Assembly: GCA_019456145.1 (NCBI GenBank)
Contig: VRUL01000001.1
Location: 248,001 to 312,000 of the forward strand
Reading direction: 5' to 3'
Length of the DNA stretch: 64,000 nucleotides
Source: Planctomycetota bacterium
GTDB taxonomy: Bacteria > Planctomycetota > Phycisphaerae > Sedimentisphaerales > Anaerobacaceae
How positions within the stretch are numbered: the stretch's first letter is position 1; each line of letters opens with the position of its first letter. Under the pieces are notes generated by a model. That model was not told where the DNA came from. It saw only the letters and a list, made by a program, of their open reading frames with translations, and made no database searches. Made by a program: the position numbers and the translations under genes. Below, piece after piece: positions 49,661 through 63,361 of the stretch.

Positions 49661-49691
49661 TTGATATTGTTAGGGGTTATGTTAATATAAT
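49661..49691 (+). promoter_or_regulatory. Possible sigma-70-like promoter for the terminase-type operon
   Basis: TTGATA at 49661-49666 and TATAAT (perfect -10) at 49686-49691, with a spacer of 19 nt, which is longer than ideal. It is about 257 nt before the first gene, leaving a long leader. Confidence 0.35.
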
Positions 49692-49762
49692 AGGTATGTT
49701 TGTTATATATATACACAACTTTAGCATTAAGGCAAGAGAAAGCAGCCAGAGAAGCCCAAAAA

Positions 49763-49947: not shown

Positions 49948-50397
49948 ATGAAAAAAATTCAGGAAGACACATTGAAAACACCCCTGGAGGTAAAGGACAA
50001 ATATCGCGACAGCGTAGATTTGCTCCGAACCAGGTTAAGTATGCTAACAGGACAAGACAAGCTGTTGATGAAAATGTATTGGGAGAATGGCAATACCTTT
50101 GGGCAAATCAGCAGGTTGGCAGGTATCAATCGATCAAGTATCACACGGAGAATCAATAAACTTACGAAAAGACTCATGGAAGGACAATACATAGATTGTC
50201 TGCGAAACCGTGACAGATTTACCGAACAAGAAATGGACATCGCAGAGGATTACTTTCTTCGCGGGGTATCGATGAAAAATATCACGGTCAAACGTCACTT
50301 GAGCTACTATCAGGTGCGCCGAAGCCTTGAAAGAATCCAACGGATTCTTGCGGCAATAAGGAGTGGGTCCTCGGTATCAAAGAATAACCGGTTATGA
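49948..50397 (+). CDS. Helix-turn-helix (sigma-region-4-like) protein
   Basis: 149 residues, basic. A helix-turn-helix at about 50-76 (TFGQISRLAGINRSSITRRI) resembles sigma region 4 or a phage-type regulator. The C-terminal half (95-140) may hold a second helical bundle. It opens a tight operon (24 nt to the next gene). It is likely a regulator of the operon or a DNA-binding packaging factor. The ribosome site is weak (GGGATATATAG). Confidence 0.7.
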   Translation: MKKIQEDTLKTPLEVKDKYRDSVDLLRTRLSMLTGQDKLLMKMYWENGNTFGQISRLAGINRSSITRRINKLTKRLMEGQYIDCLRNRDRFTEQEMDIAEDYFLRGVSMKNITVKRHLSYYQVRRSLERIQRILAAIRSGSSVSKNNRL

Positions 50398-50421
50398 TTA
50401 TTAAGAATCGAGACACAATTT

Positions 50422-51066
50422 ATGTCGACATACAATATTTCAAAAAGTTTTCGCTGGCACGGGCATCTAACTGATAAGGTTGTGCAGGTGTGCAGGATGT
50501 TCGGCCTGACGGCTGACAGACTCACCGAAAGATGTGTCATTGACAACTGCAGGTTGGAAATAAATGATGGTGACATCTTATATATCACAGGACCGTCAGG
50601 GGCCGGCAAAAGCGTTCTGTTAAGAGAATTGGAAAAAGCGACCCCGGCCCCGGACAGGATGAACCTTAATGAAATAAAACTGCCGGGCGATAAAACATTA
50701 ATCGACTGCATTGACGCCGATTGCCTGACCAGCCTTAGAATCCTCAGCACCGCAGGGCTAAACGATGTTTTCTGTGTTCTCAATCAGCCGGCCAATCTTA
50801 GCCAGGGCCAAAAATACAGGTTCCGTCTGGCAATGGCAATGGCAGCGGGAAAGAAATTCGTTTTCGCCGATGAATTTTGCTCTGAGTTGGATAGAATTAC
50901 CGCTGCAGTAATTTCATATAACATACGTAAGTTCGCAAAGAAAACCGGAACGACGTTTATTTTGGCTTCAAGCCACGATGACATACTGCTCGATTTGGCT
51001 CCGGACGTTCTGGTCATAAAAGAATTGTCCGCCCAAACACAGGTTATCTATAAAAAAAGAATCTAA
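50422..51066 (+). CDS. ABC-type ATPase (COG2401-like, no membrane partner)
   Basis: 214 residues. Walker A GPSGAGKS at 57-64 (Lys63), signature LSQGQ at 126-130, Walker B FVFADE with D150/E151, and a switch His at 185 (SSHDD). There is no transmembrane partner, so it is not a transporter. The next gene is a GNAT-like protein 2 nt downstream. In COG2401 these two parts form one protein (ABC-type ATPase fused to a predicted acetyltransferase), so this is probably the split form. Its biochemical role is undescribed. Confidence 0.8.
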   Translation: MSTYNISKSFRWHGHLTDKVVQVCRMFGLTADRLTERCVIDNCRLEINDGDILYITGPSGAGKSVLLRELEKATPAPDRMNLNEIKLPGDKTLIDCIDADCLTSLRILSTAGLNDVFCVLNQPANLSQGQKYRFRLAMAMAAGKKFVFADEFCSELDRITAAVISYNIRKFAKKTGTTFILASSHDDILLDLAPDVLVIKELSAQTQVIYKKRI

Positions 51067-51068
51067 AA

Positions 51069-51806
51069 ATGCGAAGATGTTCTGTATGTAAAAAAATGCG
51101 AATTGTCCCCGGCAATCGTGATGACTACGAAAAGCTGGCACATTATCACTACCGTGACAGTAAACTGGGAGCATTCGTGAGGATTTTTGCCTTAAAAGGT
51201 ATTCCTACTTTGGGTATGCGCCGGCAAACCGTGGGAGTTATCGTCTATAAAATGCCGACTCCGGGAGCAGAGCTTCGAAATGTCGCCACAGGTGGTTTAT
51301 TTACCGGCTTCGATAAGTCCACGCAATTAGTGCTTCTTAATAAAAACGTCCGCTGCATCAACCGGCTCATTATCGATCCGAGATTTCGCTCTCTTGGCCT
51401 GGCGAGCCGATTAGTGCGCGAGACGATGCCAAAAATCAATGTTCACATCATCGAGGCGATGGCCGTGATGGGATTAGTTAATCCGTTCTTTGAAAAAGCG
51501 GGGATGAAGGCTTTTACGGCAAAGATACAGGCGCGGTGTGTCCGACTTGTCGAGGCCCTTAGTATGGTCGGGATAGAAAGGCAAGAGCTAATTGACCCAC
51601 AGAAAGTGCAAAGAGAACTCGACCGGCTGCCAGCGGCGAGTGCCGATTTTATTGAGCTTGAGATTTATCGGTTCCTGCAAAGCTATGGCTCCCACCGCTA
51701 TAGCCAGGCGGGCCTGGAGCGAACGAGATACGTATTGAGCAAGCTTACTGCAAGGCCGGTCTATTACATCTGGTTTAATCCGAAATTGAAGTTACGGACA
51801 AGTTAA
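51069..51806 (+). CDS. GNAT-like acetyltransferase-type partner of the ATPase
   Basis: 245 residues. An N-terminal CxxC (C4/C7) leads into a GNAT-like region: RLIIDPRFRSLGLASRLV at about 99-116 (the acetyl-CoA loop R-x-x-G-x-A), then NPFFEKAGMKAF. The C-terminal 80 residues are helical. It starts 2 nt after the ATPase stop. Together they correspond to the two halves of a COG2401 protein. Substrate unknown. Confidence 0.7.
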   Translation: MRRCSVCKKMRIVPGNRDDYEKLAHYHYRDSKLGAFVRIFALKGIPTLGMRRQTVGVIVYKMPTPGAELRNVATGGLFTGFDKSTQLVLLNKNVRCINRLIIDPRFRSLGLASRLVRETMPKINVHIIEAMAVMGLVNPFFEKAGMKAFTAKIQARCVRLVEALSMVGIERQELIDPQKVQRELDRLPAASADFIELEIYRFLQSYGSHRYSQAGLERTRYVLSKLTARPVYYIWFNPKLKLRTS

Positions 51807-51820
51807 AGGGTAAGACGAAC

Positions 51821-52462
51821 ATGACAAATTCAATTCAGTCAATCGCATTGAATAAACTCGAATTTCACCCTGATAATCCCAACAAGCAGAGCAAAGTAAA
51901 TTTTGCAAAGCTGGTTCGCAATATAGAGCGGACCGGCAGATACGAGCCATTGATAGTCCGGCCTTGTTTGAAGAAGGCAGGCTGTTTTCAGATAATCAAC
52001 GGCCATCACCGCTGTCAAGCCATGGCCAGGCTCGGCTACGAAACCGCTGATTGCATTATATGGGACATCAATGACGAGGAGACGGACATATTGCTCACAA
52101 CGCTCAATCGCCTTGGCGGCTCAGACCAATTAGACAAAAAGCTAAAGCTGCTGAAACGGCTGAACAAAAAGTATGAGTCACGTGAGCTTGCAAAACTCTT
52201 GCCGCAAACGGCGAAGCAGATTGAACGGCTCACCAATCTAAAAAGACCAGGCACACCGGCAAAGATGAACCCAAAGTGCTTTGCGAATCCGCTGGTGTTC
52301 TTCGTGAACGATACACAGCAACAACAAATAGACAAAGCGCTGTCGCTGGTCGAAGAGCCAAAAGCCAAAATGACAAAGGCCGAAAAACGAGCGGCAGCGC
52401 TGACACGTATAGCTGGATATTTTTTTAACCATTCAAAAATCAAATTGGAGACTTACAAATAA
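51821..52462 (+). CDS. ParB N-terminal domain (ParB/Srx-like) protein
   Basis: 213 residues. Residues 5-82 form a ParB/sulfiredoxin-type domain: LNKLEFHPDNPNKQS, then RTGRYEPLIVRP, then INGHHR at 59-64, then a strand TADCIIWD. The usual GxRR or GERR motif reads GHHR, as in some phage ParB-like ATPases or CTPases. The remaining helices 100-200 show no classic ParB HTH. It stands in an operon with terminase-type genes, where ParB-like proteins commonly occur in phages. Confidence 0.78.
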   Translation: MTNSIQSIALNKLEFHPDNPNKQSKVNFAKLVRNIERTGRYEPLIVRPCLKKAGCFQIINGHHRCQAMARLGYETADCIIWDINDEETDILLTTLNRLGGSDQLDKKLKLLKRLNKKYESRELAKLLPQTAKQIERLTNLKRPGTPAKMNPKCFANPLVFFVNDTQQQQIDKALSLVEEPKAKMTKAEKRAAALTRIAGYFFNHSKIKLETYK

Positions 52463-52890
52463 TGGCGCAGAGAAAGAAACTCAGCAAAAAGCAGCTTTCC
52501 GTGATGGACAATATGTTCACCGGTGAGCTTGACGAGCAGGCGGTTCTGGACAGGCACAAGGTAAGCAGAAACGTCTATAGCAGATGGCTGGCTGACGGGC
52601 TTTTTGTTACCGAGTTTGACCGCAGAATAATGTCAGCTCATCGTCAAAGTGCCGCTTTAATCGCAAGATACGCTCCGCTGGCGGCGGCCAAGCTCGTGCA
52701 TCTCACCGAATCCGAAAAGGAGGAGACCGCCCGTAAGGCCTGCCTGGATATTATTTCTTTGCAGGCACTTTTAGATAAAAGGATAGCCCAGCCGAGCCAA
52801 TCCCAGACCACTGAAACACAGCCGCAACAGCAGTTAACAGAACAGGCCGCAAGCAGATTGTTGGCTGCTTTGGCCCAGGAAGAGCAATAG
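52462..52890 (+). CDS. Terminase small subunit-like protein
   Basis: 142 residues. It starts with an ATG overlapping the parB-like stop (TAATG). The N-terminus LSKKQLSVMDNMFTGELDEQ and the HTH-like AVLDRHKVSRNVYSRWLADG resemble phage small-terminase DNA-recognition domains. A helical middle leads to a Gln-rich tail (QSQTTETQPQQQ). The large subunit is 5 kb further downstream, after two unrelated genes. The assignment rests on the HTH and the context. Confidence 0.6.
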   Translation: MAQRKKLSKKQLSVMDNMFTGELDEQAVLDRHKVSRNVYSRWLADGLFVTEFDRRIMSAHRQSAALIARYAPLAAAKLVHLTESEKEETARKACLDIISLQALLDKRIAQPSQSQTTETQPQQQLTEQAASRLLAALAQEEQ

Positions 52891-52992
52891 ACTCTAAATA
52901 AATGTTTGAATTTAGCAGGTTAATCAATATAATTACAGCGGATGAGGACTTATGAAAACAAACATATTTAGCATTAACAGGGAGGAAAAAAT

Positions 52993-54387
52993 ATGAGGTC
53001 CCTTGGTAGTACACGACGCAATTTGCTGAAGGCGGCAGGCCTGGGAGCGGCTGCGATGGCAATGCCGAAATGGCTGTCAGCCGGCGAAAAAAAACAGGCC
53101 CGTAAGCCGAATATCGTCCTGATTCTGGCCGACGACCTTGGTTATGGCGACCTGTCGAGCTATGGGGCAAAAGACCTGAAAACTCCGCACATCGACAACC
53201 TGGTTGCAAAGGGTATGCGGTTTGATAACTTCTACGCCAACTGCCCCGTCTGCTCGCCGACCCGGGCGTCGCTGCTGACCGGCAGATACCCTGACCTGGT
53301 CGGTGTGCCGGGAGTGATCCGAACGCATCTAAGAAATAACTGGGGCTATCTTGCACCGCAAGCCGTTTTGCTGCCAAAGCTGCTCAATCGGGCCGGCTAT
53401 CATACCGCCATCGTAGGCAAATGGCACCTCGGATTGGAGTCACCAAATGTCCCCAACGAGCGGGGCTTCGACCATTTCCACGGCTACCTCGGTGACATGA
53501 TGGACGACTATTATAACCATCGTCGTCACGGCATCAATTACATGCGGCTACACGGCAAAGAAATCAACCCCAAAGGCCACGCAACCGATCTATTCTCGCA
53601 ATGGGCGATAGACTATATCAAAGACCGTTTCAGGTTGGAGCAGCCGTTCTTTCTGTACCTTGCTTATAATGCGCCGCACACGCCGATCCAGCCACCAAAG
53701 GATTGGTTCAATAAGGTAAAAAAACGTGAAAAGAATATCAGTGACAAACGAGCTAAACTCACAGCCCTGATTGAGCACATGGATGATGGCATTGGCAAGG
53801 TGATTGCATTGCTCAAAGACAATGGTTTGGACAAAAATACGCTTATAATCTTTACATCTGATAACGGCGGGCAGTTGAACGTGGGAGCAAATAATGGCCC
53901 GCTGCGAGCCGGCAAGCAGGATATGTATGAAGGCGGTATCCGGGTGCCGATGTGTGCGGTCTGGCCGGGGAAGATAAAAGCCGGCTCACGCAGCGACCGC
54001 GTCGCCTTGACTATGGACCTGTTCCCGACGATTTGTGAGGCGGTCGGTGCTTCTCTGGATTATGAAATTGACGGCCGTAGCATCCTGTGGGCATTGCTCG
54101 GTAAAAGCCAGCCCGCTGAAGAACGTTATCTATTCTGGGTGCGCCGCGAAGGCGGCGGTTACGGTGGGCGAGCTTATTATGCCGCGCGCTACGGCGACTT
54201 TAAACTCGTGCAGAACAGCCCGTTCGAACCGCTGCAGCTTTACAACCTAAAAGACGACCCGAAGGAACAAAATCCGCTGGAAAGAAGAAATCCAATGTAT
54301 AATAAACTTTTCACCGCACTGCGCAACCACATCATCGAGGCCGGCGCCGTGCCCTGGGAGAAATACCCCGTAAAACTGAGTAGCTAA
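52993..54387 (+). CDS. Tat-exported sulfatase
   Basis: 464 residues. Tat signal STRRNLLKAAG. Metal ligands D47/D48 (LADDLGYGD). The formylglycine site is CSPTR with Cys87, so it belongs to the Cys-type sulfatases that need FGE or anSME. Later motifs include VGKWHLG, HTPIQPP and FTSDNGGQLN. It removes sulfate esters from a polysaccharide. AGGGAGGAAAAAAT lies before the start. It lies between the small- and large-terminase-like genes, and its partner is the next gene. Confidence 0.92.
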   Translation: MRSLGSTRRNLLKAAGLGAAAMAMPKWLSAGEKKQARKPNIVLILADDLGYGDLSSYGAKDLKTPHIDNLVAKGMRFDNFYANCPVCSPTRASLLTGRYPDLVGVPGVIRTHLRNNWGYLAPQAVLLPKLLNRAGYHTAIVGKWHLGLESPNVPNERGFDHFHGYLGDMMDDYYNHRRHGINYMRLHGKEINPKGHATDLFSQWAIDYIKDRFRLEQPFFLYLAYNAPHTPIQPPKDWFNKVKKREKNISDKRAKLTALIEHMDDGIGKVIALLKDNGLDKNTLIIFTSDNGGQLNVGANNGPLRAGKQDMYEGGIRVPMCAVWPGKIKAGSRSDRVALTMDLFPTICEAVGASLDYEIDGRSILWALLGKSQPAEERYLFWVRREGGGYGGRAYYAARYGDFKLVQNSPFEPLQLYNLKDDPKEQNPLERRNPMYNKLFTALRNHIIEAGAVPWEKYPVKLSS

Positions 54388-54405
54388 TCCGGAATTCAAG
54401 AGGTA

Positions 54406-57400
54406 ATGATAAAAATGAAGAAAAGAAAACACATATTGAATAGCTTGTTGTTTGTGGTTCTGTTGTACTCGATTGTTTCAACTGCTTCGGCGGACACCGT
54501 CCTGCTCGAAGCCGAGAGCTTTGAGGACCTTGGCGGTTGGGTTATTGACCAGCAGTTCATGGACCAGATGGGCTCACCTTATCTATTGGCCCACGGTTTA
54601 GGGGAGCAGGTAAATGACGCTGTCACAAAAGTTCGGTTTCCTGCGACCGGCAAATATCGCGTCTGGGTCCGCTCTCGCGACTGGGTCGCTCCATGGAAAG
54701 CTCCCGGCGCACCGGGCAGGTTCCAGTTGCTCATCGAAGGCAGACCGCTCGAAACTGTCTTTGGCGCCGAGGGAGCCGACTGGCATTGGCAGGACGGCGG
54801 AACGGTCGAGATAACGAAAAAGCAAGCTAAAATCAAACTGCACGACTTGACCGGTTTCGAGGGTCGATGCGACGCCATCGTGTTCACAACCGATACGAAC
54901 TTCAAACCACCAAATCAAGGGCAAGGCCTAAACAGGTTTCGACGAAAATTGCTTGGCTTGCCCGATGCACCAGAAGATGCGGGCCGATATGATCTGGTTG
55001 TGGTCGGTGGCGGCATAGCGGGTACCTGTACAGCCGTATCAGCAGCCAGACTCGGGCTGCAAGTAGCGCTGATACAGAATCGGCCTGTACTCGGCGGCAA
55101 CAATAGTTCGGAGGTTCGCGTCCATCTAAACGGAAAGATTAACCTTCCGCCGTATCCTGCGCTGGGCAACGTAGTCAAAGAACTCGATTCCGGAAAGCGC
55201 GGCAATGCTCAGCCTGCTTCGAACTACGATGACCAAAAGAAGCTGCGAGTTGTACAGGCAGAGAAAAACATTCGCCTCTTTCTAAATACACACGCCTATA
55301 AGGTTGAGAAAAAAGGCAGCCGCATCACCGCCATCTTTGCCAAAAATTTAATAACAGGTAAGGAGCTGCGATTTGCTGCTCCGTTGTTTGCCGACTGCAC
55401 CGGCGATGGTACTATCGGCTTCCTTGCCGGCGCCGATTATCGCTATGGGCGTGAAGGCCGTGCCCAGACCGCAGAGTCACTGGCGCCTAAAGAGCCTGAC
55501 AAAATGACAATGGGCGCCTCGGTGCAATGGTACACTGAAAAAACCGACGAATCCTCCACTTTTCCGGATTGTCCCTGGGCGCTGCAATTCAACGAAGAAA
55601 GCTGCCAGCGTTTAACCCGGGGAGATTGGGATTGGGAAACCGGTCTCAACCGCGACCAGATAACCGAATTTGAGTCCATTCGTGACCATGCCCTTCGCGC
55701 CGTCTATGGCAACTGGGCGTTTCTAAAGAACTCCAGCGGCGATAAGGTCAAATACGAAAAACTCAAACTTTCCTGGGTCGCCTATATTGCCGGCAAGCGC
55801 GAATCCCGCCGATTGCTCGGCGATGTCATATTGCAGCAGCAGGACATCCAGCAGAAAAAAGAGTTTCCCGATGCCTTTGTCACGACTACCTGGACAATCG
55901 ACCTTCACTATCCCGCCCCGGAGAACACTAAACACTTCCCCGGTCAGGAGTTCAGAACAATCGCCAAGTTTACTCGCATCGACCCGTATCCGATTCCTTA
56001 TCGCTGCCTATATTCACGCAATGTCAACAACCTGATGATGGCGGGGCGCTGCATCAGCGTTACCCACGTCGCGTTGGGCACAGTCCGTGTGATGCGGACG
56101 TGTGGCATGATGGGCGAGGTCATTGGTATGGCCGCTTCGCTTTGTAACAAGCACAATACTGATCCTCGTGGCGTCTATCAGCGTTACTTGACCGAACTCA
56201 AAGAATTGGCTAAACGCGGCGTTGGCAAATCAGACATGGCAAGCGACGATGCTTTCAGGCAAGCGATGGAGAATGGGCAGCTTGCCAACGAGGGATTTAT
56301 ACGCTGTCGAAATTTCGTCAAAGGCTGGCTTAAGCATGCCGACCCTGCGACAGGCTTGATTCCCAGAAACCTCAACAGGAACAAGGACATCTGGAACGCA
56401 CAGGACAGCGCCGCGGATAACTACCCCTTTATGGTGCTTACCGCAGCGGTCACAGACCGTCCCATGTTCGATGGGCGAATGCTCGATATGCTTGGCACCG
56501 AGATAAAGCTTACCTCCCGCATCGGGAACCTGCCGGACACATACTCATTTTCCAAAAAGAATTTTCAGTCCGCACAACCCGATATAGGCCGCATCATCTT
56601 CGGCTCGTCGGAATATATCAAAGACGGCCTGCTGCCGCTTACCGAATGGCTCGGCCCAAGCCCCTGGTGCGACCGTATGATCGGCATCCTTGATGATATA
56701 TGGAAGCACGCCCCAGTTGATACCAGGTACGGCAAAATCCCGTCCACCAGCCAGGAAATAAACGGCGAGATGCTCCAGGTGCTTTCCCGTATCTACTGGA
56801 TGACCGGTGACAGGAAATATCTCGAATATGCTATTCGCCTCGGCGACTACTACCTCCTGGACGAACACCATCCCACTAAAAACGCGCAGAGACTTTCGCT
56901 TGACGACCACGGCTGCGAGATAATCTCAGGGCTCTGTGAACTCTATGCCATGGTCAACTTTGCCCGCCCGGAGAAAAAGCGCGCCTATCAGGAACCCATC
57001 CACGAAATGCTCGACCGTATTCTGGAGATTGGCCGACATGAGCATGGTCTGTTCTATAACCGGATTAATCCCCAGACCGGTGAGCACGCCGGCGACCTCA
57101 CCGACAATTGGGGCTACGACCTAAACGGTTTCTACACTGTCTATCTGATTGACAAGACCGAATCCTATCGCCAGGCCGTACGATATGCCCTCGGCAACCT
57201 CACTCAATATTATAGCGACTACAAATGGGAAGGTGGCGGTGCCGACGGCTACGCCGATTCCATCGAAGGCGCCATCAATCTCTACAACCGCGAACCAATA
57301 CGCTCAGCCGAAAAATGGCTGGACTATTCAACAAAGCTGATGTGGAAAATTCAAAAACCGGATGGCATCGTCGAGGGATGGCACGGCGACGGCAACTTCG

Positions 57401-57765
57401 CAAGAACTACCATAATGTATTGCCTGTGGAAAACCAAGGGCCTTACTATCAGGCCCTGGCGCCAGGATGTTATCTTCGGGGCGGTGCAGGATGGTGACAC
57501 GCTCAAAATCACCATGCGGGCAGAGAAGGATTGGCAGGGCAAACTTATTTTTGATACGCCGCGTCATAAGACGGTTATGAAGATGCCCATTGACTGGCCG
57601 CGCATCAACCAGTTCCCCGAATGGTTTACCGTCGAAGCAGGCAAATCCTATATCGGTCACGACCTGGCATCCAATTCCGGGGTAACTCTTACAGGCAAAC
57701 AATTGCATGAAGGTATAACTATACACTTGAAGGCCGGCACCGAACGGCGCTGGCTTGTAAAGTAA
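54406..57765 (+). CDS. Secreted FAD-dependent oxidoreductase with CBM-like and six-hairpin domains
   Basis: 1119 residues. Signal peptide at about 1-30 (LFVVLLYSIVSTASA). Residues 33-165 form a CBM-like beta sandwich (VLLEAESFEDLGGW). The FAD domain begins at about 195 with the dinucleotide motif VVVGGGIAGT and runs through NNSSEVRVHLNG, in the FAD-oxidoreductase family with PF12831-like members. Residues about 630-1010 form a helical six-hairpin-like (alpha/alpha toroid) domain and the last 100 residues a beta-domain. It would oxidise a polysaccharide-derived sugar. It starts 18 nt after the sulfatase. Confidence 0.82.
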   Translation: MIKMKKRKHILNSLLFVVLLYSIVSTASADTVLLEAESFEDLGGWVIDQQFMDQMGSPYLLAHGLGEQVNDAVTKVRFPATGKYRVWVRSRDWVAPWKAPGAPGRFQLLIEGRPLETVFGAEGADWHWQDGGTVEITKKQAKIKLHDLTGFEGRCDAIVFTTDTNFKPPNQGQGLNRFRRKLLGLPDAPEDAGRYDLVVVGGGIAGTCTAVSAARLGLQVALIQNRPVLGGNNSSEVRVHLNGKINLPPYPALGNVVKELDSGKRGNAQPASNYDDQKKLRVVQAEKNIRLFLNTHAYKVEKKGSRITAIFAKNLITGKELRFAAPLFADCTGDGTIGFLAGADYRYGREGRAQTAESLAPKEPDKMTMGASVQWYTEKTDESSTFPDCPWALQFNEESCQRLTRGDWDWETGLNRDQITEFESIRDHALRAVYGNWAFLKNSSGDKVKYEKLKLSWVAYIAGKRESRRLLGDVILQQQDIQQKKEFPDAFVTTTWTIDLHYPAPENTKHFPGQEFRTIAKFTRIDPYPIPYRCLYSRNVNNLMMAGRCISVTHVALGTVRVMRTCGMMGEVIGMAASLCNKHNTDPRGVYQRYLTELKELAKRGVGKSDMASDDAFRQAMENGQLANEGFIRCRNFVKGWLKHADPATGLIPRNLNRNKDIWNAQDSAADNYPFMVLTAAVTDRPMFDGRMLDMLGTEIKLTSRIGNLPDTYSFSKKNFQSAQPDIGRIIFGSSEYIKDGLLPLTEWLGPSPWCDRMIGILDDIWKHAPVDTRYGKIPSTSQEINGEMLQVLSRIYWMTGDRKYLEYAIRLGDYYLLDEHHPTKNAQRLSLDDHGCEIISGLCELYAMVNFARPEKKRAYQEPIHEMLDRILEIGRHEHGLFYNRINPQTGEHAGDLTDNWGYDLNGFYTVYLIDKTESYRQAVRYALGNLTQYYSDYKWEGGGADGYADSIEGAINLYNREPIRSAEKWLDYSTKLMWKIQKPDGIVEGWHGDGNFARTTIMYCLWKTKGLTIRPWRQDVIFGAVQDGDTLKITMRAEKDWQGKLIFDTPRHKTVMKMPIDWPRINQFPEWFTVEAGKSYIGHDLASNSGVTLTGKQLHEGITIHLKAGTERRWLVK

Positions 57766-57845
57766 CCGCGAGAAATCACGCAAAAGCGTATTTGCGTACT
57801 TGTCTACTTGCTCCGGATAACATTCAAAAAAAGGGGGTTTTAATA

Positions 57846-59342
57846 ATGACAAAATCAACTATGGGCAATTCAGCAGGAACCTGCAATATCGAAAAAGCAG
57901 CTAACATTTATGAGAGTTTACGCCGTACTCGACCGGCGGCAAAGCAGGACCTTAAAAATTACGTCAAAGTCTTTCTGGGTATTGATGTCCCGGACAAAAA
58001 AATCTGCCCCGAACATAATAGGCCGATGGATTATCTCTGGCATGCTTTCTCGGCTGACTTTGCTGTCGAAGGAAAAGCAAACGCTGACGCGATTGTCTGG
58101 GCCAACCGTGCCGGCGGCAAGACTGAATTGGCTGCGGTCGCGACGCTTTTGGATTGTGTCTTTAAGCCGAACTGCCGGGTCAGGATACTGGGCGGCTCAG
58201 GTGAGCAATCCGGCAGGTTGTACCAATACCTCACCACCTTTTTATGGAACGGCTTCGAAGAGTTTCTGGCAGGCCCGGCCCTGAAAGCAAAATGCAGCTT
58301 TGTTAACGGCTCTTCCGTCGAGGTCCTGACCCAATCGGCGACAAGTGTTCGCGGCCAGCACATTCACAAACTTCGCTGTGATGAGGTCGAGCTTTTCGAC
58401 CAGGATGTTTTTGCAGCCGCAAAGTTCACCACGCAGAGCACCGAAAATCTTCTCGCCGCTATGGAGATTATCAGCACTATGCATCGTCCTTATGGCTTGA
58501 TGCAAAAAGTTGTTTCCGATGCAGTTTGCTTCGGCACGCCGGTCTTTAAATGGTGCATGTGGGAAGTGATTGAAAAGTGCGCCGATAGAAGCTGCTCTCA
58601 GTGTCCCTTATTGGAAGACTGCCGGGGAAAGGCAAGGATTGCTGACGGTTATCTGAAAATTGACGATTGTATAACGCAGATGCGCCGGGCCAGCAGGGCA
58701 GGCTTCGAGGCTGAGATGCTCTGCAAAAGGCCTTCTCTGGAGAATGTGGTCTTTGACGAGTTCGACCCGGCCAGGCATGTCCGGCCTGTCGATTATGATC
58801 CGAATCTGCCGCTATACCGCGCGCTTGATTTTGGCTTTGTAAATCCCTTTGTGTGTTTGTGGATTCAGGTCGATAGTGCCGGCGTTGTGCGCATAATAGA
58901 TGAGTATGTTCGAAGCCGCGCGACGATTGACGTGCACGTTGGCGAGATTAAGAGCCACACACCCGGCGGTGAAAGTAAAGTGGCTGCGACCTTTTGTGAT
59001 CCCGCCGGTGCAGGCGTAAATGATATCACTGGCACAAGTGTCGTTCGTGAACTGCGGACGATGGGGATAAGGGCCCGGTATCGGCGAAGCGGCATCCTGG
59101 AGGGTATTGAGCTTGTCCGAAGGGCCATTCGGGCCGGCGATGGCAAAGGCCGGCTTGTGATCTCACCGAAGTGTCAGCGGCTGATTGAGGCGATGCGGTG
59201 TTATCATTACCCTGAGCCCGGCAGTGCCGCCGCAGGCGAGCTGCCGCTAAAAGACGGCGTCTACGACCATCCAATCGACGCATTGCGCTATTTCTTCGTC
59301 AACCACACCCGCTCCGCAAAAACCACCACCAGACGCTATTAG
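57846..59342 (+). CDS. Terminase large subunit-like ATPase/nuclease
   Basis: 498 residues from ATG 57846 with GGGGG upstream; the frame reads back to a TTG. A Walker A-like loop is NRAGGKT at 87-93 (K92) and Walker B is CDEVELF with D179/E180. The C-terminal nuclease fold has D328 (LDFGF), D385 (CDPAGAG) and D478 (DHPIDAL), so both activities look intact. It also carries an unusual four-cysteine motif, C245/C250/C253/C259 (CSQCPLLEDC), that could hold zinc or Fe-S. Large terminases pump and cut phage DNA, but there are no portal or capsid genes here. It lies 80 nt after the oxidoreductase. Confidence 0.85.
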   Translation: MTKSTMGNSAGTCNIEKAANIYESLRRTRPAAKQDLKNYVKVFLGIDVPDKKICPEHNRPMDYLWHAFSADFAVEGKANADAIVWANRAGGKTELAAVATLLDCVFKPNCRVRILGGSGEQSGRLYQYLTTFLWNGFEEFLAGPALKAKCSFVNGSSVEVLTQSATSVRGQHIHKLRCDEVELFDQDVFAAAKFTTQSTENLLAAMEIISTMHRPYGLMQKVVSDAVCFGTPVFKWCMWEVIEKCADRSCSQCPLLEDCRGKARIADGYLKIDDCITQMRRASRAGFEAEMLCKRPSLENVVFDEFDPARHVRPVDYDPNLPLYRALDFGFVNPFVCLWIQVDSAGVVRIIDEYVRSRATIDVHVGEIKSHTPGGESKVAATFCDPAGAGVNDITGTSVVRELRTMGIRARYRRSGILEGIELVRRAIRAGDGKGRLVISPKCQRLIEAMRCYHYPEPGSAAAGELPLKDGVYDHPIDALRYFFVNHTRSAKTTTRRY

Positions 59343-59453: not shown

Positions 59454-60200
59454 ATGAATTACCAGTTCGACAAAGAGCATATAAACCAGCACGTGGTTAA
59501 ATACGGCGTGGACGTCCGGCCGGCCATCGTACTTAAACAGGATAAAACCAAGCTCCAGGACTATTGCAACACACTTATAGAAAAGTTTCCACAGGTATTT
59601 GAGACCCTCATAGCGGGCCCCAGGCAGTTGCGGGTGCAAAAGACATTCTTGCTCTCCAACAATAAACGGGCCGAGATACCCACATTCGTATTAACCGCCA
59701 GAGGTCCCCTTTTTACTTTTCCGCAGCGCTTGTATATCGACGGCGTACAGGATTTAGATGTCCCTCAGAGGGATAAAATATTTCGCAAAGCTCTGGATGA
59801 ACTCAGAGCCAAATTTGTAGACCGGGCCGTACCCCGCATAGGCGTGATTCATGAATTTGTCTTTGACACTGGCACGATAGACTCAGTCCGGATTTTAGCC
59901 AGCAGCTTGAAAAATGACGTGTGGAAGCGAAAGGCTAAAAATTTGCGTTTCTGGCTCGATACTTCGATAGAAGGCAAAAACATCAATATACAGATAAAGC
60001 CGACTCAGTTAAGACAGTTCGCCGGAGGTGCCGGTAATGTTCCTAATCCGGATGTGGCGTTCGGCATAATTGTAAACGTAGATATTTATAACCAGAAAAT
60101 CAAGGGTGATTTGACCGGCAGTGAGGTCCGCGATATTGTTACCTTTGCTAACGACTATGTACCGGAAGAGCTGATTAAATTTTTGAACAATGAGGATTAG
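59454..60200 (+). CDS. Conserved-looking protein of unknown function
   Basis: 248 residues with no signal peptide, no membrane segment and no motif that I recognise. Alternating hydrophobic strands (PTFVLTARGPLFTFP, IGVIHEFVFDTG, NPDVAFGIIVNVDI) suggest an alpha/beta domain. It is separated from the terminase-like gene by 111 nt and could be part of that unit. No start other than ATG 59454 is favoured. Confidence 0.55.
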   Translation: MNYQFDKEHINQHVVKYGVDVRPAIVLKQDKTKLQDYCNTLIEKFPQVFETLIAGPRQLRVQKTFLLSNNKRAEIPTFVLTARGPLFTFPQRLYIDGVQDLDVPQRDKIFRKALDELRAKFVDRAVPRIGVIHEFVFDTGTIDSVRILASSLKNDVWKRKAKNLRFWLDTSIEGKNINIQIKPTQLRQFAGGAGNVPNPDVAFGIIVNVDIYNQKIKGDLTGSEVRDIVTFANDYVPEELIKFLNNED

Positions 60201-62707: not shown

Positions 62708-63361
62708 ATGAAGAACAAAAGTTTTGCGATACTGGCAGTTCTGGCTCTATCAGTTGTAGTACTCACCGGCTGTGAGAGAAAAGAGCCTCTGGAGGAGCCT
62801 TCGAGAGAGCCTTCAAAAGAGCCTTCAAAGGAGATCGAGCCCGAAGTTGCCAGGAAAGCGCCTGGCTTTACAATAAAAGCCTTCGACGGCAAAACTATTA
62901 GTCTTTCCGACTTCAAGGGAAAAATTGTTGTTCTCGAGTGGTTCAATTACGAATGTCCCTTTGTCCTGCGGCACTACGGAAAAACAACTACGATGATTGA
63001 CCTTGCAAATAAGTATACGGACAAGAATGTCGTCTGGCTTGCGATAAACAGTACAAGCAATGCAACACCGGAAGCCAACATGGAATTTGCGCAAAATCGC
63101 AAACTCCCATATCCGATACTCGATGACACCTCCGGTACGGTGGCACGGGCCTACGGTGCGCAGACGACCCCGCATATGTTTGTTATAGACACAAAGGGAA
63201 GTATCGCCTACCAGGGCGCAATTGATAATGACGAAAGGGGCAGAAAGAGAAAAGGCGTAATTAACTATGTTGATAAGGCCTTGGCGGAGCTGACCGGCGG
63301 AAAAGAGGTAAGCACTACAGACACCATGCCGTATGGCTGTATTGTAAAGTTCACTAAATAA
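62708..63361 (+). CDS. Redoxin (AhpC/TSA-like) lipoprotein
   Basis: 217 residues. Lipoprotein signal peptide ending VLTGC (Cys22), then a charged Glu-Pro-Ser tether (EPSREPSKEPSKE). The thioredoxin-fold domain at about 50-195 (APGFTIKAFDGKTISLSDFKGK, then NYECPFVLRHYG) has one Cys in the ECPF motif, the position of a peroxidatic Cys, and no CxxC. A last Cys lies in MPYGCIVKF near the C-terminus. It may reduce peroxides or disulfides at the membrane surface. There is a GAAAGGGC ribosome site before ATG 62708. Confidence 0.83.
   Translation: MKNKSFAILAVLALSVVVLTGCERKEPLEEPSREPSKEPSKEIEPEVARKAPGFTIKAFDGKTISLSDFKGKIVVLEWFNYECPFVLRHYGKTTTMIDLANKYTDKNVVWLAINSTSNATPEANMEFAQNRKLPYPILDDTSGTVARAYGAQTTPHMFVIDTKGSIAYQGAIDNDERGRKRKGVINYVDKALAELTGGKEVSTTDTMPYGCIVKFTK

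Follow-up and report, generated by a model that had tools for sequence, protein, structure and literature searches.

A phage-type DNA-packaging module maintained in Sedimentisphaerales and other Phycisphaerae without recognisable portal or capsid genes

Terminases are packaging motors that work together with a portal and a shell. In gene transfer agents (GTAs) of the RcGTA type, packaging genes are inherited vertically without a mobile element. In SSU5/Nickie-type phages and phage-plasmids (Salmonella SSU5, Pseudomonas Nican01/nickie and Rhizobium RHph_N1_10), genes for ParB, an ABC-type ATPase, a GNAT protein and the large terminase subunit (TerL) lie in one direction. Here we describe a similar set of genes in a planctomycete chromosome, found in a stretch of 64,000 nucleotides (hereafter the window; GenBank assembly GCA_019456145.1, contig VRUL01000001.1, positions 248,001 to 312,000) from a member of the order Sedimentisphaerales, class Phycisphaerae. 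The module, at 49948-59342, encodes a helix-turn-helix (HTH) protein, an ABC-ATPase, a GNAT protein, a ParB-like protein, a protein resembling the small terminase subunit (TerS) and TerL, all on the forward strand. We put at just under one half the probability that it is a domesticated, capsid-free DNA-processing machine, derived from an SSU5/Nickie-like packaging module and now belonging to the core chromosomal genes. No description of such a cellular machine was found in the openly licensed literature.

The module and its phage relatives

An earlier note on this DNA, made from the sequence alone, had named the six genes; the open reading frames and their family matches agree with it:

49948-50397, + strand: HTH protein, sigma-70 region-4 or antitermination-Q-like (matches below cut-off); first gene of the operon
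50422-51066, + strand: ABC-type ATPase, COG2401-like half (ABC_tran 6e-12; phrog_293 1e-31)
51069-51806, + strand: GNAT acyltransferase, COG2401-like half (phrog_886 6e-13; weak GNAT family match)
51821-52462, + strand: ParB-like protein (ParB_N PF02195 8.5e-8; phrog_723 1.9e-18; NGHHRCQA motif)
52462-52890, + strand: TerS-like protein (phrog_2538 2.4e-7)
52993-54387, + strand: host-type sulfatase, inserted between TerS and TerL (PF00884 3e-66)
54406-57765, + strand: host-type FAD-dependent oxidoreductase, inserted between TerS and TerL (PF12831 4e-75)
57846-59342, + strand: TerL, with ATPase and RNase H-like nuclease (Terminase_6C 5e-6; phrog_2 1e-17)

The first five genes are separated by gaps of 24, 2 and 14 bases, followed by a 1-base overlap between the ParB-like and TerS-like genes. 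The gapless five-gene operon of the earlier note thus stands as a near-contiguous run on one strand, but TerL is not the next gene, being preceded by the sulfatase and oxidoreductase genes.

As the same genes stand ahead of the portal and capsid genes in SSU5/Nickie-type phages, the module is taken to originate from phage packaging. The likeness covers ParB, the ABC-ATPase, the GNAT protein, one or more small genes and TerL, the phage gene before TerL being regarded as TerS from its position. The ABC protein of the window is 34-40% identical to those of the Nickie, SSU5 and Rhizobium phages, whereas their TerL proteins share only about 21-23% identity with that of the window, over around 80% of the protein. 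In the regions read, these phages have an extra ParB, and no HTH/S24 pair occupies the corresponding position. In the Rhizobium phage, portal and major capsid genes come next after TerL, while in the window host genes do. The nearest viral contigs encode TerL proteins at 30-38% identity, and three of them (L229, L231 and L234) carry a portal-like gene after TerL (matching PF04860 for L229).

TerL has the Walker A and B motifs of the ATPase and the three acidic residues of an RNase H-like nuclease. Numbered from the ATG at 57846, Lys92, Asp179, Glu180, Asp328, Asp385 and Asp478, for which the earlier note had called the enzyme complete-looking, are all invariant in an alignment of 16 relatives; so are Cys245, Cys250, Cys253 and Cys259, which are also present in a viral relative. 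The structural model is of moderate confidence (mean pLDDT 72), and its first 30 fold matches in the PDB are viral terminases, among them those of D6E, T4 (gp17), HK97, Sf6, P22, G20c and T7. The PF03354 TerL_ATPase profile gives no match to this TerL; absence of a match to one family therefore proves nothing, a caution that applies equally to the capsid searches described below.

The ABC protein contains a Walker A motif (GPSGAGKS), a signature motif (LSQGQ) and a Walker B motif (FADE). It and the GNAT protein match phrog_293 and phrog_886, the phage ABC and GNAT families, as well as phage homologues, one of which is annotated "MK0520 protein, ABC-type ATPase fused to a predicted ...". Fused ABC-GNAT homologues adjoin TerL in another planctomycete family (f32), outside the class. 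The COG2401 assignment of the earlier note is upheld by these phage families, the phage annotation and the fused homologues, not by comparison with a COG2401 model itself. The f32 TerL proteins in the alignment retain the Walker B glutamate, not the aspartate; in three loci from outside the class with a fused gene beside TerL (L209, L210 and L211), a PAS/cyclase-like gene lies downstream.

His27, Arg107 and Gly110 of the GNAT protein are invariant in 16 sequences. Its AlphaFold2 model (pLDDT 88) matches the fold of GNAT proteins with moderate scores (TM about 0.4), including the RNA base acetyltransferases TmcA and NAT10. In a viral structure library, phage Mom is the second-ranked fold match, also with a moderate score. 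At the sequence level, comparison with Mu Mom gave no sign of homology (HMM score of -2.1 bits, hhalign probability of 0.1%). A review of jumbo phages, citing earlier work, reports the prediction that ABC-coupled GNAT proteins acylate a DNA base (PMC7824862). The coupling of an ABC-ATPase with a GNAT protein is what the window pair has in common with that system, likened here by description and not by direct comparison of families; it differs in that it lies in cellular genomes together with a full terminase and, within the class, with an S24 repressor as well.

Distribution, inheritance and neighbouring genes

The module is near-universal in Sedimentisphaerales, but not in the class Phycisphaerae. 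TerL was found in 54 of 61 genomes of the order sample, two of which (G015 and G055) have only short fragments, and the GNAT gene in 50 of 61; module genes are mostly single-copy. In a class sample of 247 genomes of at least 90% completeness, 149 contain TerL at E<=1e-3, 129 of them at E<1e-40 (hand count). The earlier note had proposed looking for the same set without phage genes in many genomes, and it does recur in nearly the whole order and in many other Phycisphaerae. The gene order HTH-ABC-GNAT-ParB-TerS-TerL is common to several orders (maps of GC-rich loci were made by six-frame HMM search), contrary to a random arrangement. The HTH gene keeps its first position in relatives, and the TerS-like gene, where found in linked modules, lies upstream of TerL.

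The whole genome to which the window belongs gave no match to portal family PF04860 or capsid families PF05065 and PF20911, extending the earlier remark that the window lacks such genes. Among 38 good genomes, the HK97 portal was found in five (four above cut-off), the HK97 capsid in seven and the GP7 capsid in one; a portal model built from the three nearest viral contigs matched one of 42 genomes, weakly (E 1e-4), and not the genome of the window. These four models made up the shell search; tail genes and other capsid types were not searched for. The matches in relatives lie away from the TerL locus, and the capsid genes presumably belong to prophages. In the fetched loci, the genes adjoining TerL are neither portal nor capsid genes as far as examined, which contradicts an ordinary prophage.

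The TerL tree shows eight changes of host-family label, where seven is the minimum, and the GNAT tree six, equal to its minimum; the ABC tree has long branches and follows the host families less well. These labels come from the family groups of the genome collection, compared without a host marker tree. The module is under purifying selection. Pairwise dN/dS values, obtained by a simple method that is unreliable at high dS, are between 0.089 and 0.390 across all genes and pairs tested; those of TerL are 0.089-0.156, and the highest, 0.39, belongs to the HTH gene in the comparison of G000 with G004.

The interval between TerS and TerL is variable. It contains the sulfatase and oxidoreductase genes in several genera, other genes elsewhere and nothing in compact loci; judged by eye from the maps, inserted genes mostly point in the direction of the operon. 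The ribose-5-phosphate isomerase B gene (rpiB) is near TerL in eight loci (L069, L071, L073, L075, L078, L081, L082 and L083), mostly in the TerS-TerL interval. TerL is tens of kilobases from the GNAT gene, or on a separate contig, in a few genomes, and a few show stops, splits or a lost TerL. Loci L243 (G015:C1:1722000-1737999) and L244 come from a one-contig genome with ABC-GNAT-ParB-TerS but only a 30-residue TerL tail; in G015 this tail is 0.5 Mb away, beside a thioredoxin-like gene resembling that at 62708-63361 of the window.

XRE and ImmA/IrrE-type genes directly follow TerL in four loci (L246, 1468-4237; L067, 16404-18009; L069, 15518-17120; L245, 8649-9860). In L246, TerL precedes them and its last 34 residues occur again after them, the duplicated end being 85% identical to the window TerL; the 3' end of terL may serve as a site of insertion. 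In the window, TerL is followed by a conserved gene:

59454-60200, + strand: protein of 248 residues, with no family match at the curated cut-off

Eight distinct sequences of this protein are present among the fetched loci, and it is conserved after TerL in a few genera; its membership of the system is doubtful.

The S24 repressor and a candidate operator

A gene for a CI/LexA-like protein, with an XRE HTH and a Peptidase_S24 domain (2.7e-17), accompanies the module. Its presumed cleavage site, Ala146-Gly147, and presumed catalytic residues, Ser185 and Lys223, are invariant in 11 sequences. The domain pair, Ala-Gly site, serine and lysine are as in CI/LexA-type S24 repressors, a kind of repressor that usually reacts to DNA damage; the gene differs from these in adjoining a packaging operon and not prophage early genes. 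In most loci fetched from other orders, and in one family of the window's order, it adjoins the module in divergent orientation; in the window's own family it is unlinked (G000:C1:35779-36555). All 31 good genomes of the order sample have the gene at E<=1e-10. In the class genomes, TerL and S24 occur together in 112, TerL alone in 17, S24 alone in 24 and neither in 94, giving an odds ratio of 26; the counts were compiled by hand from two tables, with E-value cut-offs chosen after seeing these and shared ancestry ignored. Among the genomes outside the order that contain both, 45 of 61 have the two genes no more than about 7 kb apart, on opposite strands in 44 (our own count). We regard the S24 protein as the likely switch of the module.

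A palindrome, TGTTARRTANNTAYYTAACA, is shared by a number of module and S24 promoters. The pattern was written by eye from upstream sequences, a prior unsupervised count of exact dyads having given no clear winner. With 300 shuffles each, it stands out in about half of the module promoters and half of the S24 promoters. In 12 whole genomes, 23 distinct sites were found at two or fewer mismatches (our own tally): six at S24 promoters, six at module promoters, five in an intergenic repeat and six others attributable to chance. The informative part of this search is the genome-wide scarcity of other sites. The intergenic palindrome repeat, TGTTCAATAAAAATCTAACA, occurs in three genera (L283, 2529; L285, 468; L286, 2430) and is near the operator in sequence, yet distinct. 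Several relatives of the window's family have the layout TTGACT-N16-TAAAAT-N8-operator ahead of the HTH gene, similar to the arrangement in the window given below. In other orders, the half-site ACCAAACA is present in 8 of 15 gaps between the S24 and HTH genes against 0.15 expected from single-base shuffles; of two half-site patterns counted, one scored 9/15 and the other 8/15, and some of the eight gaps are from close relatives.

Upstream of the module in the window, the following were found:

49661-49691, + strand: predicted promoter, -35 TTGATA at 49661-49666 and -10 TATAAT at 49686-49691 (consensus match only)
49701-49720, no strand assigned: degenerate S24 operator copy TGTTATATATATACACAACT, agreeing with TGTTARRTANNTAYYTAACA at 14 of 18 positions, 9 bases past the -10 element

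This copy was missed in a first scan of 220 bases upstream and found after widening to 500 bases; its position agrees with that of the strong operators of relatives. Judged from the shared sequences, the case for repressor control is good for several relatives; for the genus of the window it is weak.

Alternative readings and proposed function

Among the options listed in the earlier note, a domesticated packaging machine is the best supported, by its recurrence without structural genes, its inheritance with host lineages and purifying selection. That note had mentioned neither the S24 repressor and operator, nor the inserted host genes, nor the likely source in SSU5/Nickie-type phages. Several observations weigh against a domesticated, repressor-controlled machine. 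About half of the scanned promoters are without a clear site, and the twelve promoter sites are partly circular, as the pattern was derived from those promoters. In the window, the module promoter has no TGTTARRTANNTAYYTAACA site at up to three mismatches by pattern search, and the degenerate copy is weak, another match at 14 of 18 positions lying at -321. Of the class genomes, 24 have S24 without a strong TerL (a single family accounts for 13), and TerL is absent from some genomes retaining the rest of the module, such as G015. Neither the co-occurrence nor the dN/dS values are corrected for shared ancestry. The kinship of the GNAT model to Mom is by fold only. Lastly, the four shell models leave room for a divergent capsid set elsewhere in the genome.

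This last point bears on the main rival, a GTA with head and tail genes located elsewhere and too divergent to recognise. The complete terminase retained in the operon, the wide vertical retention of packaging genes and the phage-type repressor resemble known GTAs, but for the locus, known here from genes alone, the four models recognise no portal or capsid close to TerL and none conserved at other sites, while in phages and the nearest viral contigs the portal follows TerL. Besides repeat and chance sites, the operator is found in the 12 genomes only at S24 and the module, although an activator could control a third operon. We regard a GTA as unlikely, if less so than what follows. Single-copy, near-universal inheritance is unlike that of patchy defence loci, which makes it quite improbable that the ABC-GNAT pair marks the cell's own DNA while TerL moves along unmarked DNA and cuts it. 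The combination of modification-like and translocase-nuclease parts and the published link of ABC and GNAT proteins to DNA base modification (PMC7824862) would suit such a role; in PADLOC, the ATPase partially matched mad3/mad8 and the ParB and HTH domains likewise gave only partial matches, with no hit to a system-specific protein, and the defence option of the earlier note found no positive support. A host terminase could also load host DNA into the heads of infecting phages, cutting their burst or moving host genes. Terminase subunits without a capsid under a derepressible repressor recall the logic of phage-inducible islands, and capsid genes, presumably of prophages, are present in some of these genomes; the infecting phages would, however, need a compatible portal, and the single-copy, vertical pattern is not one of mobility. 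This we consider improbable, and a satellite is unlikely on the same pattern, no search for integrases having been made. Finally, a decaying prophage remnant inherited by descent would account for parts of phage origin and for the stops, splits and lost TerL genes of a few genomes, but is largely refuted by purifying selection on all genes, invariant catalytic residues and retention over families and orders; its probability is very small.

If the module is a domesticated machine, the CI/LexA-like S24 repressor may bind operators at two promoters, its own and that of the module, as the shared sequence suggests for several relatives; in the window's own genus, this step leans on the weak operator copy. 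Judging from the conserved Ala-Gly, serine and lysine, DNA damage would lead to self-cleavage of the repressor and release of the operon, the transcription of which the HTH protein may aid. The ParB-like and TerS proteins would, by their families, select and load DNA. The ABC-GNAT pair may add an acyl group to a DNA base, as predicted for such pairs, with weak fold support here, and TerL, with its intact ATPase and nuclease, would cut and translocate the selected DNA. Given the lack of a portal or head, the product would be processed or moved DNA and not a filled particle. Repair, DNA export and damage-triggered cutting of the chromosome are candidate benefits to the cell.

Within the module the ABC-GNAT pair has a fixed cellular context, and the control circuit can be tested directly by way of the shared operator. 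It is possible, though we hold this somewhat less firmly than the domesticated origin, that a damage-inducible cellular DNA machine, based on the packaging motor of a virus and lacking portal and capsid, is a core trait of Sedimentisphaerales and of many other Phycisphaerae. If so, an intact terminase kept for the cell's own use without portal or shell would be a new use of this motor.

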